In this document: positions 55,647 through 62,990 of the stretch, in pieces
Layout: each line of letters starts with the position of its first letter
How positions within the stretch are numbered: position 1 is the stretch's first letter
Source of the DNA: Streptomyces fradiae ATCC 10745 = DSM 40063
Lineage (GTDB): Bacteria > Actinomycetota > Actinomycetes > Streptomycetales > Streptomycetaceae
Length of the DNA: 64,000 bases
Assembly (NCBI RefSeq): GCF_008704425.1
Contig: NZ_CP023696.1
Location: forward strand, 1,722,501-1,786,500
Direction: 5' to 3'
Translations under genes and position numbers: made by a program
Notes under the pieces: model-generated
Database searches by the model: none
What the model was told of the DNA's origin: nothing
What the model saw: only the letters and a program-made list of their open reading frames with translations

Positions 55647-57947
55647 TTGACGAACCCGCAACACGGACACGCAGCAGACCACCGCAGCAGCGACGACCAG
55701 GACGCGCACGGCGCGGAGACCTTTCCCGCGCACCTGCGACGACTGAGACGGGAACGCGGCCTGTCTCTCGCCGACCTCGCTCGGCGCACCCACTACAGCA
55801 AGGGCTACCTCAGCAAGATCGAGACGGGGGCGAAGCGGCCGACCGCCGACGTCGCCCGGCTCTGCGACGAGGTGCTGCGCGCCAGGGGCGGACTCCTGAG
55901 GCGGATGGCCCCGCCCACCGGGCCGTCGCCCGCCCCCGGCCGGCACGCTGCCGCCACCGCGCCCCGCGATCGGAACGACGTCTGCCCCTACCGGGGCTTC
56001 CAGGCGTTCACCCCGGAGGACTCGCAGTGGTTCTTCGGCCGCGACCGGGTCACGGCCGCCCTGGTCGAGCGGACCTTCGAACGGATCGGCCGCGGCCCGC
56101 TCGCGCTGGTCGCCCCCTCGGGCACGGGCAAGACATCCCTGCTCAACGCGGGGCTCGTACCCGCCCTCAAACGCGGTGAACTGCCGATGCCCGGCGCCGA
56201 CCGCTGGCCGGTCGTCACCCTCACCCCCACTTCCCGCCCCCTCGACGAGCTGCTGGAGCGCACCGCCAAGACCGTCGGCTGGGACCCCGGCGTCACCACC
56301 GAAGCGCTGCGGGAGGATCCCGCCGTGCTTCTCCACGGCGTGGGCGACCCGCGGGACGTCGCATCCGGCTCCCCCACGGGCGGGACGCCCCCGCCGGCCC
56401 GTCCGGTCCTGATCGTCGACCAGTTCGAGGAACTGTTCACCCTCTGCTCCGAGGAGGAGCAACGACGCGCCTTCGTCCGGGTGCTCCTCACCCTGGCCGG
56501 GACCCCGCCCGCACACGACGCTCCCGAACCCGCCGTGGTGGTGCTCGGCATCCGCGCCGACTTCACCGACGACTGCCTGAGGTTTCCGGACCTTGCCGAG
56601 GCCCTCGCGGGAGGCGTCTTCGTCCCGCCGCCGATGTCGGTGGCGGAACTGACGGAGGCGATCACACGTCCGGCCGAGCTGGCCGGGCTCACCCTCGAAC
56701 CCGGCCTCGTGCCCCTGCTGCTACGGGACGCCGGGCCGGGCGACACGCCCCTGCCCGAGGACCCCGCGGCCGCGCACCACACCGGGACGGGTCCGAACCC
56801 GCAGGCCTGGGCGGGTTCGGCGCCCGGGGCCGGGGAGGCACCCGGCTTCGCCCTGCCGTTCGTCTCACACGCCCTGCTCGCCACCTGGCGGCGGCGCGAG
56901 GGACCGGCTCTGACCGTCCGGGCATACGAGCGGACCGGCGGCGTCCGGGAAGCCGTCGCCCGGACCGCGGAGAACGTCTTCGCGGGGCTGCGCCCGGCCG
57001 AGCAGAAGGCCGCCCGGCTCCTCCTGACCAGGCTGGTCCATGTCGCCGAAGGCGTCCGTACGACCCGTCGCCGGGTCGGCCGGGCGGCACTGACGGAACA
57101 GCTCGCCGGCACGGCCGGAGCCGCCGTCGCATGGGAGGCGCTCGTTCGGGCACGGCTCGTCACCGTCGGCGGTGACACGGTCGAGATCTCGCACGAGGCC
57201 CTGCCGCACGCCTGGCCCCGGCTCCGCGCGTGGCTCGACACCGACCGGGCCGCCCTGCTGCTGCTCCAGGAGCTCTCCCGGGCCGCCGCGGTATGGCGAC
57301 GTGAGGGCCGCGACCCGTCCGCCCTGTATCGGGGCAGCCGCCTGGAAGCCGCGTCCGCCCTGGCCGCCGGCCCGGGCGGAGGGCGGCTGCTGAGCGCGTT
57401 GGAGGAGGAGTTCCTGACGGCCGGCCGCGAGCGGGAGGACCTTCTCCGGGCCCGCGCTCGGTGGCGGGTCCGAGTACGGCGGTCCCTGCTCGCCGCCCTC
57501 CGCCTTCCGCCGGCGCTCGCCGCGACCGCCCACCGCCTCGCCCACCGCCTCGTCCACCGGCGGCGGGCCCGGCGTCGCCGCCGGGCCTCCGGTCACGGCC
57601 GTTCCCCGGGCGGCTCGACGGACCCGGTCCCGCGGCTCCCGCTCCGGCCGGCCGACCGGCCGACCACCACGTGTACCACCACGGGGTGGGAACGGCATCC
57701 GTTCCCACCCCGCGTCCGCCGGATCTCCACGCCCCACAGCGCAGGCCGGCTCGAACCTGACGGCACGACGACGTCAGGAGAGCCGAGGAGCAGTACTCGG
57801 CGCCCGGGTGTCGACCGGGATGTCGGGGTCAGTCACGGACGGACGCGGCCCTGGCGCCTGAGTACCACCGCGGCTCACACGCCGCTGGCTATCTGGCCGA
57901 TGCCGCTCCAGCCGTTGACCATGCCGTTGCCGATCCAGGCGCTGTAG
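55647..57947 (+). CDS. XRE-STAND (nSTAND1) P-loop NTPase lacking a C-terminal sensor
   Basis: 766 codons from a TTG start (AGGGGG 6 nt upstream; no in-frame ATG nearby). An XRE helix-turn-helix (LRRLRRERGLSLADLARRTHYSKGYLSKIE by position, residues ~25-60) is followed by CPYRGFQAFTPEDSQWFFGRD, typical of nSTAND1. The NTPase has Walker A APSGTGKTSLL (~155) and Walker B VLIVDQFEELFTL (~255), then helical winged-helix regions to ~610. Homologues usually continue into a membrane helix and WD40 propeller; here residues ~640-766 are Arg-rich low-complexity sequence ending inside the convergent gene (73-bp overlap). Probably truncated. Confidence 0.8.
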   Translation: MTNPQHGHAADHRSSDDQDAHGAETFPAHLRRLRRERGLSLADLARRTHYSKGYLSKIETGAKRPTADVARLCDEVLRARGGLLRRMAPPTGPSPAPGRHAAATAPRDRNDVCPYRGFQAFTPEDSQWFFGRDRVTAALVERTFERIGRGPLALVAPSGTGKTSLLNAGLVPALKRGELPMPGADRWPVVTLTPTSRPLDELLERTAKTVGWDPGVTTEALREDPAVLLHGVGDPRDVASGSPTGGTPPPARPVLIVDQFEELFTLCSEEEQRRAFVRVLLTLAGTPPAHDAPEPAVVVLGIRADFTDDCLRFPDLAEALAGGVFVPPPMSVAELTEAITRPAELAGLTLEPGLVPLLLRDAGPGDTPLPEDPAAAHHTGTGPNPQAWAGSAPGAGEAPGFALPFVSHALLATWRRREGPALTVRAYERTGGVREAVARTAENVFAGLRPAEQKAARLLLTRLVHVAEGVRTTRRRVGRAALTEQLAGTAGAAVAWEALVRARLVTVGGDTVEISHEALPHAWPRLRAWLDTDRAALLLLQELSRAAAVWRREGRDPSALYRGSRLEAASALAAGPGGGRLLSALEEEFLTAGREREDLLRARARWRVRVRRSLLAALRLPPALAATAHRLAHRLVHRRRARRRRRASGHGRSPGGSTDPVPRLPLRPADRPTTTCTTTGWERHPFPPRVRRISTPHSAGRLEPDGTTTSGEPRSSTRRPGVDRDVGVSHGRTRPWRLSTTAAHTPLAIWPMPLQPLTMPLPIQAL

Positions 57948-59108
57948 GCGGTGCTGGTGCCACTACCCCGGAGCAGGAGGTCGGCGTGGACATCGCCGGT
58001 GAAGTCGGCGAAGTGGACGCGGCCGTGCTCCGTGGTGACTCCCGAGGCGACTTGTCCGACCGTGCTCCAGCCACCGCGTCCGTCTCCGCCCGTGTTGACG
58101 TGGACGTTGAACGAGCCGTTGGAGTTGATCACCCAGTAGTCGGTCTTGCCGTCGCCGTCGTAGTCGGCTAACCGCACGCGCGAGCGGTCCAGAGTGGTGC
58201 CGCTGGCGACCTTGCCGACGGCCACAAAGGCATTGGGGCCGCGGTTGAGCCACACGCTGACGTTGCCGTTCGCGGCGATGCTGACGTAGTCGGGCCCGCG
58301 GTCACCGTCCCAGTCGGCCCACCGGATCTGATCGCTGCCGCCCACCTCGTTCACGGCGGCGGAACGCCGCGGCTTGGTGGTCTCGGTGATCCACTGGGCG
58401 AGGCCGTCGGTGCGGGCGGCCACGGCGCTCGTGCGGGTTTCGGCCGGGTCGGTGCCCAGGCAACCCCCCTGCCAGGACCGGCTGTTGACCCCGACGATCT
58501 CACCCGCGGCATTCAGGAGGGGACCGCCGGCGTCTCCCTTGCAGATGGCGTCGGTACCCGTACCGGTGACGGCCAGCGTGGTCGCGTCCGCGGAGTCGAG
58601 GGTGAACGTGCCGGTGTGGGCCTTGTCCGGCACCCACTCGGTCTTCGTCCGGCCGTAGCCGACCGCGCTGAGGCTCGTACCGGCCGCCGGGGTCGCGGTC
58701 GCGACCCTGGCGGTGGCCGCGCCCCTGGCCGGCAGCATGAGACGGGCCAGGACCAGGTCGCGCTCGGCGCGAGGGGCGAGTTCGGTGACGTCGCGCGTCT
58801 CACCGCCGGCCAGGGTGACGATGGTCCGCAGAGCGGGCTTCCCCGCGGGCACCTGCTGGCCCGCCGTGGGGGGCGAAGCAACTGGCTGCGGTGGCGACCC
58901 ACCACTCGTCCACGAGCGTGCCGGTGCAGGCGCGGGTGTTCGGCTCTTCCCCGATGTTCCGCTTCACGACGGAGGCGTGCTGACCGGGCAGCGCTTCGGG
59001 CCCCTCGAGGGCCAGGGCGGAATCGGCCGAGGCCAGGCTCGCAGCGACCACGGTGGCTGCTGCCAGCAGGCTGGTAATCCGCACTGAGCCCGGACGGACA
59101 TCCGACAT
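57875..59108 (-). pseudogene. Frameshifted trypsin-like pseudoprotease with FG-GAP repeats
   Basis: Two frames together encode one protein. The N-terminal part (ATG at 59108) gives a signal peptide (ITSLLAAATVVAASLASADSA) and the start of an S1 protease (HASVVKRNIGEEPNTRACTG, DEWWVATAASCF). The frame shifts at a run of six G (58868-58873); one more base would join it to the second frame, which gives PAGKPALRTIVTLAGG through CKGDAGGPLLN to FG-GAP/VCBS repeats (RWADWDGDRGPDYVSI, RLADYDGDGKTDYWVI, HFADFTGDVHADLLLR). The catalytic His (TAAHC becomes TAASC) and Ser (GDSGG becomes GDAGG) are both replaced. A TTA codon lies at 58169-58171. Could be a true pseudogene or a sequencing error in the G run. 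Confidence 0.8.
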
Positions 59109-59310
59109 GCGGCTTTCTTCACGATGGGCTCCACGACAACGCCCGCTGCCCATGTCACCTGGCCACGCCTTGAGTTGAGGCCGACCCCGGAGTGGACAAC
59201 GGGTTGCGTACGACGTGTGACAGCGTACGCGAACCATGATCAGTTATGGTTCGGAATCGGCCCTCGCGGGAGGTGGTCGAGTGGTCGGGCTCGCGCCGAC
59301 ACCCCGGTAG

Positions 59311-59622
59311 GGACCCGGAGTTCGACGTGCCCCCTGGGACGACGAGCGACGCCCGCCGTTCCGTGCGGAGTCGGATGCCGCCCTCCACCACCTTTACGGC
59401 GTTGAGCGCCACGGCGTTGACTACTTCCCGGAGACTCTCCCCGTCGCCACACGCAAGGAGGACGCCGCCCACGACACCAACCGCGCCAAGGACCTGTTCC
59501 TGGACTTCCACGACCGCCTGGCCGAGACCCAGCGGCACCGGCACCTCCTGCCCCACGGACCTCAGCCCCACCTCCCGACCAGGACCACCGCCACTCGGCG
59601 TGACCCTGACCGCCCCGCCTGA
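59311..59622 (+). pseudogene. 3' remnant of an Eco57I/PglX-like DNA methyltransferase (restriction/defence)
   Basis: A frame opens after a TAG at 59308 and ends at TGA 59620-59622, with no start codon in a sensible place. It reads PWDDERRPPFRAESDAALHH, then LYGVERHGVDYFPETLPV, then ATRKEDAAHDTNRAKDLFLD, FHDRLAETQRH. This corresponds to the conserved C-terminal tail of large class I SAM-dependent DNA methylases of restriction and phage-defence systems (from memory: RaELDAyyahLYGLsRDdvdYIldtFPivkrkdE...yRTkrliLe.yDamA). Only the last ~100 residues remain, and several consensus residues are altered, as expected for a decaying fragment. Confidence 0.65.
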
Positions 59623-59714
59623 GCACCCCCCCCCACCAGCGCGCCCCTCCTCGGACGGCGCGCCGTACTCGGCGCAACCTCCGCCCGCCCACCTCACCGC
59701 ACAGGCAGCCGCAT

Positions 59715-61358
59715 ATGGAACCACGCAACTACCGCATGGCCGTCTCGACCGCGCAGGACTTCGTGACCACCTCCGCCGAAGCCGACCGCCAACTGCACTA
59801 CTGGCTAGGCACGATGAAGCGGTACGACACCTCCGCCCTGGACGAGGGCCGCAACGAGATAGGCGAGGGGGTGACCCTCGACCACGACGCGTCGGCGGGC
59901 CGGCACGGCTCGTACTCCCGCTGGCGCCTGCGCGAGAACCGGCCCGACAACCAGGGCACCTGGCAGTCCACCCTCGTGGTCCGCTCGGACAACGGCAAGG
60001 ACTCCCAGCGCACCTGGCTCCAGGTCGACATCGAGCACCATCCGTCCGACGCGCAGCTCAGGCCCACGCGGGCCAACACACCGGGCATAGCCAGGTTGCT
60101 GCTCGACTCCCTGCGCGCCCGGGACGGGCTCGCCGATGTCACCTCGGATCCCCGGTTCATCGAACCGGACGACGTCGAGGAGGTCATCGAGGAACTCTGC
60201 GACCAGGACCGCCGGCTTCCGCTCATCGTGGCGAGCGTCCCCTACGGGAAGAAGGCCGACACCTGGACCGACGAGGTGGTCGTACCGGCCTTCCGCAACC
60301 TTCCCGGTCTCGCCGTCATGTACGTACTGACGCCGGAGGCACAGACCCTCTTCAACACCAAGCTGGACTACCACCCCGTCTTCGGTGGCGGCATCCGCAC
60401 CTACCTCCCCGGTGTCGACCCGGCCTGGCAGCCCGATGCCCAACGCCACCCCGTGATGTCCCGGACCAAGATCGAGACGAGTCCGCGAAGGGCAGCGGCG
60501 ATCCTCGCCTCCCTCCCCCAACGACAGGCTCTCCGCCTCTCGCTGCCCGCTCCGCTGGACACCCTCCCCGTCCAGCGCACGCGCCCCCGCCCTGCGGGGC
60601 ACGACTCCGGCCTCACCGACCTCCGTGCGGAGAACCGCACCCTCGGCAACATGCTCGCCGAGGCCGAACAGCGCGAGAACGCCAACGCGGACCTCCTGCG
60701 CGACCTGCGCCAGCAGCTCCAGATCGCGGAGGAGCTGGAGTTCGACCAGGCGGCCGAGAACCAGGATCTGTACGCCAGGCTCAAGCACGCCGAGCGCCAG
60801 GTCCGCGCCCTTCAGATACAGCTGGGGAAGGCCGGCCGGAACACCCACGCCCTGACCGCCGCGCCCGCCGACGCGCCCACCACCTTCGCGAAGATCCTGG
60901 ACCGCATGGGCGAGTTCTCCCACCTCCGCTTCACCGGCGACAAGCGGAAGACCAGAGATCTCGACGCCCAGTCCATCGGCAACTGGGTCGAGGTCGCCTG
61001 GGACGCCCTGTGCGCCCTCGACACCTACGCCGCCGCCTCGGCCGCCGGCACGGCGGGGGGCGACTTCCGCTACTGGTGCGCCCACCTGCCGGACGACTGC
61101 GAGTACCCGTTCCCGGCAGGCAAGGTGAAGATGAAGGAGTCCAAGACCGTCGGCAACCGGGACGACTGGCGCCGCGAACGCACCTTCCCGGTGCCCGAGG
61201 CCGTCGACCCGAGCCGAAAGCTGTTCATGGAAGCCCACCTCCGCATCGGCGGCGGCAACACGGTCTCCCCGCGGCTGTACTTCTACGACGACGGCCCCAA
61301 CACCGGGCTGGTGTACGTCGGCTACCTGGGCCCGCACCCGACCAACACGAAGACCTGA
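59715..61358 (+). CDS. 547-residue coiled-coil protein of unknown function, possible defence component
   Basis: No family recognised. Three parts are visible. Residues 1-~290 form an alpha/beta region (YWLGTMKRYDTSALDEGRNE, WLQVDIEHHP, LPLIVASVPYGKKADTWTDE, AVMYVLTPEAQTLFN, GGGIRTYLPGVDPAWQPDAQRH). Residues ~298-375 are a long, heptad-rich coiled coil (LRAENRTLGNMLAEAEQREN onward). Residues ~390-547 form a globular domain (ILDRMGEFSHLRFTGDKRKT, WVEVAWDALCALDTY, FRYWCAHLPDDCEYPFPAGK, ending LYFYDDGPNTGLVYVGYLGP). No signal or membrane segment, so cytoplasmic. It starts 92 bp after the methylase remnant in the same direction, as if once in its operon. Codon use is normal and no disabling mutation is seen. 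An ATG at 59736 is an alternative start. Confidence 0.8.
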   Translation: MEPRNYRMAVSTAQDFVTTSAEADRQLHYWLGTMKRYDTSALDEGRNEIGEGVTLDHDASAGRHGSYSRWRLRENRPDNQGTWQSTLVVRSDNGKDSQRTWLQVDIEHHPSDAQLRPTRANTPGIARLLLDSLRARDGLADVTSDPRFIEPDDVEEVIEELCDQDRRLPLIVASVPYGKKADTWTDEVVVPAFRNLPGLAVMYVLTPEAQTLFNTKLDYHPVFGGGIRTYLPGVDPAWQPDAQRHPVMSRTKIETSPRRAAAILASLPQRQALRLSLPAPLDTLPVQRTRPRPAGHDSGLTDLRAENRTLGNMLAEAEQRENANADLLRDLRQQLQIAEELEFDQAAENQDLYARLKHAERQVRALQIQLGKAGRNTHALTAAPADAPTTFAKILDRMGEFSHLRFTGDKRKTRDLDAQSIGNWVEVAWDALCALDTYAAASAAGTAGGDFRYWCAHLPDDCEYPFPAGKVKMKESKTVGNRDDWRRERTFPVPEAVDPSRKLFMEAHLRIGGGNTVSPRLYFYDDGPNTGLVYVGYLGPHPTNTKT

Positions 61359-61383: not shown

Positions 61384-61578
61384 TCAGCGTTCCCCGGCGA
61401 AGCGGACGAACGCGGCCCACTCCGCAGCGGTGACGATCAGTTGGGCGCGGGACGGCGCCTTGGAGTCGCGGATGTGGATGGCACGGGGCGTGACGGCGAC
61501 TTCGAGGCATTCGCCGCCCTCGTTGCCGCTGTAGCTGCTCTTGAACCAGGCGAGAGGAGCGGATTCCGCACTACTCAT
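61384..61578 (-). CDS. DUF397 small regulator-partner protein
   Basis: 64 residues with the DUF397 hallmark WFKSSYSGNEGGECLEVA and AIHIRDSK...EWAAFVRF. It overlaps the upstream XRE stop by 4 bp (ATGA). DUF397 proteins accompany XRE-DUF5753 regulators throughout Streptomyces (WhiJ-type systems) and are thought to relieve or modulate their repression. Confidence 0.93.
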   Translation of the reverse strand: MSSAESAPLAWFKSSYSGNEGGECLEVAVTPRAIHIRDSKAPSRAQLIVTAAEWAAFVRFAGER

Positions 61579-62441
61579 AGCTCTGCCACCATCTTCTCGA
61601 TCAAGGCAAGGGACTCCTGCATCGTAAGCGCCTGCGCCCGGATGCTGCCGTACCGTGCGGCCATGATGCGAGCTTCCTCGGCGTCCGTGACCAGTCGGCT
61701 GGAGCTCTGTGCCTCGACATAGCCCAGTTGGGGCTTCCCCTTGGGGGTCAGCAGGATGAAGGAGCCGCCCATCCCCGCGTGCTGGGTACGCCCGGTCGGC
61801 ATCACCTGGAGTTCCACGTTGCGCAGCCGGGCCAGCCGGAGCAGCTGCTCCAGTTGCTCCCTGTGAACGTCCCGCTCACCCAGCGGACGTTGCAGGACCA
61901 CTTCCTCGACCACAGCGGTGATCATCGGAGGCGGCCACTGAGTGAGGATGTCCTGCCGCGCCAGGCGGGACACGACCCGCTGCTCCACCGTCTCCTCGTC
62001 CAGCAACGGCTTGCGCATCTCGTACAGGGCTCGGATCCGCCGCTCGGTCTGGAACAGCCCGGGGATGTCATGGCAGTTGTAGAAGTTGATCTCCACCGCC
62101 TCCCGCTCCAACCGCGCATAGTCCCGGAACCACGCCGGATGCCGGACCCGCGCCTTCGCCTTGGCCCTCTCCACGTCCTCGATCGTGGCGCGCAGCAGCC
62201 CGCCCGCGTCCAGCGCGTCATCGGCCGCCTCCAGGAACTCCCGCTGCGGTGTCCGCCTCCCCCGCTCCAGCGAGGAGACGAGGTCCTCGCTGTACCCGAG
62301 CCGGTCCCCCAGCTCCCGCTGGGTGAGCCCGGCCCGTTCCCGGAGCAGTTTGACCTGTTTGCCCACCGCCCGCATCAGGTCGCCGCTCAGCTCCCCCTCG
62401 TCGTGGACCCCCTGCGGCTCCACCGCTGCCTCGGACACCAC
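61575..62441 (-). CDS. XRE-DUF5753 transcriptional regulator (WhiJ-like)
   Basis: 288 residues from a GTG at 62441 (AAGGGGG ~6 nt upstream). The HTH is VKLLRERAGLTQRELGDRLGYSEDLVSSLERGRR by position (~30-63). The DUF5753 domain follows with YARLEREAVEINFYNCHDIPGLFQTE, PPPMITAVVEEVVLQRPLG and MPTGRTQHAGMGGSFILLTP. This pair with DUF397 and the divergent ATP-binding gene forms a WhiJ-like triad that in S. coelicolor relatives controls development or antibiotic production. Its specific target is unknown. Confidence 0.93.
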   Translation of the reverse strand: MVSEAAVEPQGVHDEGELSGDLMRAVGKQVKLLRERAGLTQRELGDRLGYSEDLVSSLERGRRTPQREFLEAADDALDAGGLLRATIEDVERAKAKARVRHPAWFRDYARLEREAVEINFYNCHDIPGLFQTERRIRALYEMRKPLLDEETVEQRVVSRLARQDILTQWPPPMITAVVEEVVLQRPLGERDVHREQLEQLLRLARLRNVELQVMPTGRTQHAGMGGSFILLTPKGKPQLGYVEAQSSSRLVTDAEEARIMAARYGSIRAQALTMQESLALIEKMVAEL

Positions 62442-62561
62442 TGCCCCCTTCTCAGGTCACGGCCGACACCCCGCACACGGCACCTTCCGTACCGGTACCA
62501 GCACCCTCCGTACCGAAGGATGTCCTGGTCAGAGTAGAGCGGGCCCACCACGCTCAGTGAC

Positions 62562-62990
62562 ATGAAGACGCAGATCTCCTCCCTTCGATTCAGCCGGCTC
62601 CTCAGCGCCACCCCGCGCGGCGCCCGGCTCGCCCGCCTACTGACCGTGCAGCAGCTCGACGCGTGGGGTTGGCCGCCGGCCTGCGCGGCGAGCGAGTACG
62701 CCGCTGTGGTCGCCGCCGAGCTGGCGGCGAACGCGGTGACCCACGGGCGCGCACGGGGCCGCGGTTTCCGGCTCACGCTCATCAACGAGGCGTCCGACTC
62801 CGGCACGCTCCGTGTCGAGGTCACCGACGCACGGGGCGACCGGGTGCCGCCTTCCCTTGCGACCACCCCCGAACCCACCGCCGAATCCGGCCGCGGCCTG
62901 CTTCTCGTCGCGGCCCTCGCCACCCGGTGGGGGTGGGAGCCGGACCCGCCCTCCGGGAAGACCGTCTGGGCGTGTCTTCCGCTCACCTGA
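62562..62990 (+). CDS. HATPase-domain (anti-sigma-kinase-like) protein
   Basis: 142 residues, a single GHKL ATPase domain as in RsbW/SpoIIAB relatives: AAVVAAELAANAVTHGRARG (N box), VEVTDARGDRVPP (G1-like) and ESGRGLLLVAALATRWGW (G2). It lacks the dimerisation extension of classical anti-sigma kinases. It is divergent from the XRE-DUF5753 gene and is a standard third partner of such loci. ATP binding is likely; sigma-factor binding is unproven. Confidence 0.9.
   Translation: MKTQISSLRFSRLLSATPRGARLARLLTVQQLDAWGWPPACAASEYAAVVAAELAANAVTHGRARGRGFRLTLINEASDSGTLRVEVTDARGDRVPPSLATTPEPTAESGRGLLLVAALATRWGWEPDPPSGKTVWACLPLT

Follow-up and report, generated by a model that had tools for sequence, protein, structure and literature searches.

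An intact gene for a 547-residue HEC-07-like protein (P0001; positions 59715..61358, + strand) was found immediately downstream of the remains of a defence operon in the window, the 64,000-nucleotide stretch of Streptomyces fradiae ATCC 10745 = DSM 40063 that was analysed. By its profile matches, the protein is a diverged member of the HEC-07 family with an NsnC-matching C-terminus. The mobile or decaying partner of the gene is, as aligned with intact relatives, an operon encoding a DruE-like helicase, an SNF2 helicase and a DNA methylase, here deleted to a 3' stub. We give an even chance to the reading that the protein is an effector carried by defence loci as cargo and acting alone, as an autoinhibited RelE-type RNase that would bring about abortive infection.

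The open reading frame at 59715-61358 was full length and the position of its start codon was conserved among relatives, confirming the original prediction that the gene is intact. That prediction could not place the protein in any family, which proved wrong in a profile search with PADLOC. The HEC-07 profile PDLC04161 matched residues 70-373 (profile positions 92-391 of 553, E 3.3e-22), and recovered the same protein when searched over the whole genome. The NsnC profile matched residues 381-541 (E 5.7e-11); the match to the isolated C-terminal domain had an E-value of 1.3e-11, and the C-terminal domains of 73/73 members matched NsnC. Three other HEC-07-profile matches (L074, L076 and L082) aligned over positions 5/18-543 of the A2 alignment model with E-values of 3e-61 or better, and two more (L070 and L071) retained the tail motif described below. 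Scans of the protein against Pfam, NCBIfam and PHROGs gave coiled-coil noise only, with no match to Pfam RelE/YoeB, and profile searches against PDB sequences retrieved nothing beyond coiled coils and one short, unrelated helical match.

The acronym HEC, for Hma-embedded candidate, comes from the preprint of Payne et al. as relayed in PMC12988326. The HEC families were discovered as genes embedded in defence operons, and some of them (HEC-05, HEC-06) are reported to function independently (PMC12988326, PMC11411939). No experimental test of HEC-07, and no reported mechanism or activity, was found in the literature searched. Since the HEC-07/NsnC family is already listed among defence candidates, we do not rate the locus an undescribed system, as had been proposed. 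The protein resembles HEC-07 in its match over residues 70-373, in having full-length co-linear relatives in other actinomycetes, and in that its gene also sits inside a helicase-methylase defence operon; it differs in its divergence, with ~54% of the profile covered, and in that the usual host operon is DruE-like/SNF2/methylase rather than Hma, the gene often being solo. Embedding in an Hma operon was not seen among the relatives, where the gene adjoined DruE-like/SNF2/methylase or SMC/McrBC genes or stood alone; such embedding reflects how the HEC-07 family was discovered, not the protein itself. The likeness to NsnC, which PADLOC places with the Nhi-like systems, lies in the C-terminal domain, whereas the NsnC profiles are only ~305-316 positions long, the 547-residue protein has extra N-terminal domains, and it lacks a recognised NsnA/NsnB partner.

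The frame at 59311..59622 (+), open and ending in a TGA stop, is the C-terminal remnant of a DrmMI/Eco57I-like DNA methylase. Protein homology covered 59335-59535, where the remnant aligned without gaps to the C-terminus of the L032 methylase (55% identity over 67 aa, E 2e-16), far beyond chance; identity to the L089 methylase C-terminus was 48% over 66 aa. DNA homology between the window and intact loci spanned 59331 to 59712, and the deletion boundary was therefore placed at 59331. The PglX/Eco57I-like fragment of the original prediction is thus a genuine remnant, homologous to the C-terminus of full-length methylases, and in intact relatives the full methylase lies directly upstream of the 547-residue gene. 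The predicted distance of 92 bp between remnant and gene was also correct. This spacer (59623..59714, +) is conserved at the DNA level in both intact-operon and solo loci, with a consensus that contains a GC-rich inverted repeat, and may be a leader or promoter sequence. Persistence of the operon elsewhere in the genome was considered and rejected: genome searches returned no SNF2 relative, no close methylase at 1e-80, and only generic helicase matches for DruE.

The gene was present in 29 of 199 same-genus genomes, and scanning 84,980 species genomes recovered 80 loci, the majority from Streptomyces, Kitasatospora and Streptacidiphilus. Of the relatives whose locus is intact, the closest carried the gene directly 3' of genes for a DruE-like/MZB helicase, an SNF2 helicase (DpdE/DrmD-like) and a DrmMI-like methylase, with a DUF397-WhiJ-HATPase triad after it. 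In a second context it stood between an SMC-like zinc-hook ATPase with a small protein and McrBC/UvrD/HsdM genes. Kitasatospora and Streptacidiphilus had it alone, at fixed sites outside defence loci; in Streptomyces it was also found solo, often still next to DUF397/WhiJ. The neighbourhood analysis that had been suggested thus found homologues recurring beside a full-length methylase operon and in an SMC/McrBC defence context. Homologues mainly in stable contexts outside defence had been expected to speak against the original prediction; roughly a third of the retrieved relatives, those of Kitasatospora and Streptacidiphilus, sit in such places, which counts in part against it.

The methylase was present in 35/199 genomes, and methylase and gene together in 18/199 (hypergeometric p 3e-9, with kinship ignored); in 18/18 of the genomes having both, they lay on one contig within about 25 kb. 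At 20 further methylase loci, most of them chosen for having no adjacent copy of the gene, the same methylase end had other genes of small or medium size behind it, or none, and the WhiJ triad came after the methylase in 16 of the 20. The triad therefore travels with the operon and not with the gene. The position between methylase and triad is, from these comparisons, a cargo slot, in which the gene is present in some genomes. The deleted operon resembles DISARM, Druantia and BREX in encoding a DruE-like helicase, a DpdE/DrmD-like SNF2 helicase and a DrmMI-like methylase; the 547-residue gene is a component of none of these systems, and it persists without them.

Several arrangements were observed around these loci. 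The conserved Streptomyces operon of DruE-like, SNF2 and methylase genes, with its variable cargo slot and following DUF397-WhiJ-HATPase triad (L061:12843-19001, L032:1-8285 and relatives), may be a DISARM/Druantia-like composite that carries developmental-type regulators of its own. In L061, the intact operon is immediately preceded by a pPIWI_RE module (PprDinG, PprPIWI; L061:5074-11672). In L107-L124 (e.g. L107:5900-16600) the SMC-like zinc-hook ATPase, which has weak similarity to LmuB, occurs with the small protein, the gene and McrBC/UvrD/HsdM; this type of ATPase-small protein pair was also found without the gene.

In a 77-row tree, the window copy grouped with L089, in which the operon is intact (support 99/90). 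Operon scars upstream of an intact gene were found in the window, L090, L092, L093, L097, L103 and L126/L141, the scar of L090 being a long frameshifted methylase. Since the breakpoints differ, the scars represent at least seven separate decay events (the window and at least six others), counted among loci picked for presence of the gene, a choice that under-represents loss of the gene itself. The gene was broken in L149, beside an intact operon, and in L059. Pairwise dN/dS of the gene was 0.12-0.37 whether the operon was present or absent, and comparisons of the window copy with its nearest relatives gave 0.22-0.37; by these ratios the gene is under purifying selection. The suggestion of a self-sufficient system in the original prediction fits well with a gene that repeatedly outlives its operon under such selection. 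The second defence context and the solo stable sites in Kitasatospora and Streptacidiphilus likewise indicate that the gene is probably self-sufficient.

The full-length AlphaFold2 model of the protein had a mean pLDDT of 84.6. The coiled coil of ~78 residues that had been predicted appeared in it as a 77-residue helix, residues 299-375 (60609..60839, +). VIA-align placed residues about 3-134 (59721..60116, +) near helix-grip/SRPBCC-like proteins (Z about 8.7-8.8), and residues 124-275 (60084..60539, +), which lie within the HEC-07 match at 70-373, near thioredoxin-like alpha/beta folds (Z up to 9.9) with the CXXC motif absent. Foldseek found no significant neighbour for the full-length model. 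Given this result and the missing CXXC, the N-terminal assignments are fold-level leads only; the model suggests that the N-terminus comprises a helix-grip-like and a thioredoxin-like domain.

Residues 384-547 (60864..61355, +), modelled alone with a pLDDT of 93.2, form the C-terminal, NsnC-matching domain. Foldseek searches of this model against PDB and BFVD gave nothing significant. When 230 Foldseek candidates were re-aligned with VIA-align, 12 PDB entries reached Z >= 2 and 11 of these 12 were toxins of the RelE/YoeB/HigB/ParE superfamily, although families outside the candidate list may still be related, and the best score, Z 6.3, is within the range where chance arrangements arise. Model residues 19-158 aligned with residues 1-83 of YoeB (2a6r) at 2.8 A over 82/83 residues, and the predicted order of elements was beta1-alpha1-alpha2-beta2-beta3-beta4, as in RelE/YoeB, with an added helical insertion. 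The catalytic residues of YoeB are R65 and H83. Model residue 158, which is H541 (61335..61337, +), aligned on YoeB residue 83, which we take to be the catalytic histidine, at the point where the structural alignment ends; R520 (61272..61274, +) is a candidate counterpart of R65, and H508 (61236..61238, +) is a further candidate active-site residue. H508, R520 and H541 were invariant in 73/73 sequences, including relatives on viral contigs with unrelated N-termini, and this motif was also kept in remote HEC-07 members. Among the same 73 sequences, position 475 was E or D and R489 was conserved in 72/73.

Comparison by hhalign of the tail with Streptomyces YoeB (20 loci matching Pfam YoeB, including one stray non-YoeB row, L269, read on the wrong strand) found no similarity, and the RelE/YoeB fold assignment consequently rests on models, which suggest a RelE/YoeB-like fold for the C-terminal domain. 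The likeness to the YoeB/HigB/RelE mRNA interferases thus consists of predicted fold and element order, an invariant Arg on strand 3 and an invariant His after strand 4. Unlike those interferases, the domain is the tail of a 547-aa protein with a helical insertion of roughly 60 residues, there is no antitoxin gene, and similarity is not detectable between sequence profiles.

The same RelE-like tail was seen behind other N-termini. Viral contigs L221-L242 encode proteins of ~580-640 residues in which this tail and a coiled coil are combined with a different N-terminus, and in L077:939-2337 the tail motif follows what may be, as judged by eye, a nucleoside-deoxyribosyltransferase-like N-terminus. 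The head of L077 joined to the common tail suggests that heads are exchangeable. By analogy, one C-terminal domain behind several N-termini would be the usual sensor-effector pattern.

The genes flanking the locus in the window were both as predicted and otherwise. A WhiJ-like triad does lie at 61384-62990, consisting of a DUF397/BldB-like small protein (61384..61578, -), a WhiJ-like XRE-HTH + DUF5753 regulator (61575..62441, -) and an AbaA-like HATPase (62562..62990, +), but it belongs with the deleted operon, as the 16/20 methylase loci indicate. The HTH + nSTAND1 NTPase at 55647-57947 is likewise present but decayed: homology stops near residue 640, where the coding signal changes, and its closest relatives have frames of 1300-1400 aa, so that the C-terminal half has been lost. 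Given this truncation, the flanking STAND system is, from its sequence, probably dead. The region at 57.6-59.3 kb is scrap. A trypsin-like/FG-GAP gene at 57875-59237 (-) is frameshifted near 58.85 kb and has a serine at the position expected for the catalytic histidine (ATAASC).

In the mechanism that we favour, the N-terminal domains would keep the C-terminal RNase inactive, probably within a dimer formed through the coiled coil. On sensing a phage-derived or infection-induced signal they would release it, the coiled coil serving to dimerise the protein or to relay the signal. H508, R520 and H541 of the released tail would then cleave RNA, and translation and phage growth would be halted in an abortive infection. 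Since silencing would be intramolecular, an antitoxin gene would not be needed.

A role without catalysis is unlikely, though it comes closest among the alternatives: the tail would have a RelE fold and be enzymatically inert, and the protein would be a nucleic-acid-binding or adaptor subunit aiding the neighbouring helicase/methylase or SMC/McrBC systems. RelE relatives such as ParE act without RNase activity, the gene adjoins two different multi-gene systems, and the protein has a coiled coil. Against this, the gene is intact and under selection where its partner operon has been lost and stands alone in Kitasatospora and Streptacidiphilus, and the invariant H/R/H residues suggest catalysis. 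Only slightly less probable is that we are dealing with an actinomycete host regulatory or developmental protein which is frequent in defence islands by chance. The fixed chromosomal positions in Kitasatospora and Streptacidiphilus speak for this, as does the company of WhiJ/DUF397/HATPase genes in many Streptomyces, paralogues of WhiJ, BldB and AbaA being controllers of development (PMC10294661). With roughly a third of the relatives at stable non-defence loci, a host function would also suit. Such a role fits poorly, however, with the gene's patchy presence (29/199 genomes) and strong physical association with defence genes, with the occurrence of the tail in relatives on viral contigs, and with a WhiJ triad that follows the methylase even where the gene is missing.

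That triad also bears on a reading in which the protein acts as toxin and the convergent DUF397/WhiJ as antitoxin of a toxin-antitoxin-like pair, retained through addiction and not for defence. It has been proposed that XRE-DUF397 pairs form type II toxin-antitoxin systems (PMC6262351, PMC10364602), several solo loci still have DUF397 and/or WhiJ next to the gene, and the modelled C-terminus appears toxin-like. We nevertheless regard this as improbable, because DUF397/WhiJ is not beside the gene in Kitasatospora, Streptacidiphilus or the SMC/McrBC contexts, and methylase loci without the gene have the triad just as often. No constant partner that could be a cognate antitoxin gene adjoined the gene across its contexts, and WhiJ/DUF397 was rejected as an obligate partner, as it stays with methylase loci and is missing from the gene's other contexts. 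Least probable is a functionless, decaying passenger, the one gene of the operon that has yet to break. The scrap just upstream and the broken copies in L149 and L059 are what such decay would leave, but the window copy has a full-length frame, its dN/dS values are those of a constrained gene, and the gene was retained through at least seven independent operon losses.

Returning to the self-acting, autoinhibited effector, a broader proposal is held more tentatively, at somewhat below an even chance: HEC-07/NsnC proteins would be single-gene immune receptors, each with an exchangeable sensor, a coiled coil and an autoinhibited RelE/YoeB-type RNase. They would be passed as cargo among defence operons unrelated to one another and would outlast these. 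The work gives a catalogued defence candidate a mechanism that names specific residues and can be tested. The recorded methylase-operon losses with the cargo gene kept amount to a natural experiment, and their repetition implies that a gene embedded in an operon can be a defence unit in its own right. Should the tail prove to be a RelE-type RNase, the boundary between toxin-antitoxin modules and single-protein immune receptors would become thinner, and if the receptor-tail reading is true, the toxin of a toxin-antitoxin system would have been turned into the tail of a receptor.
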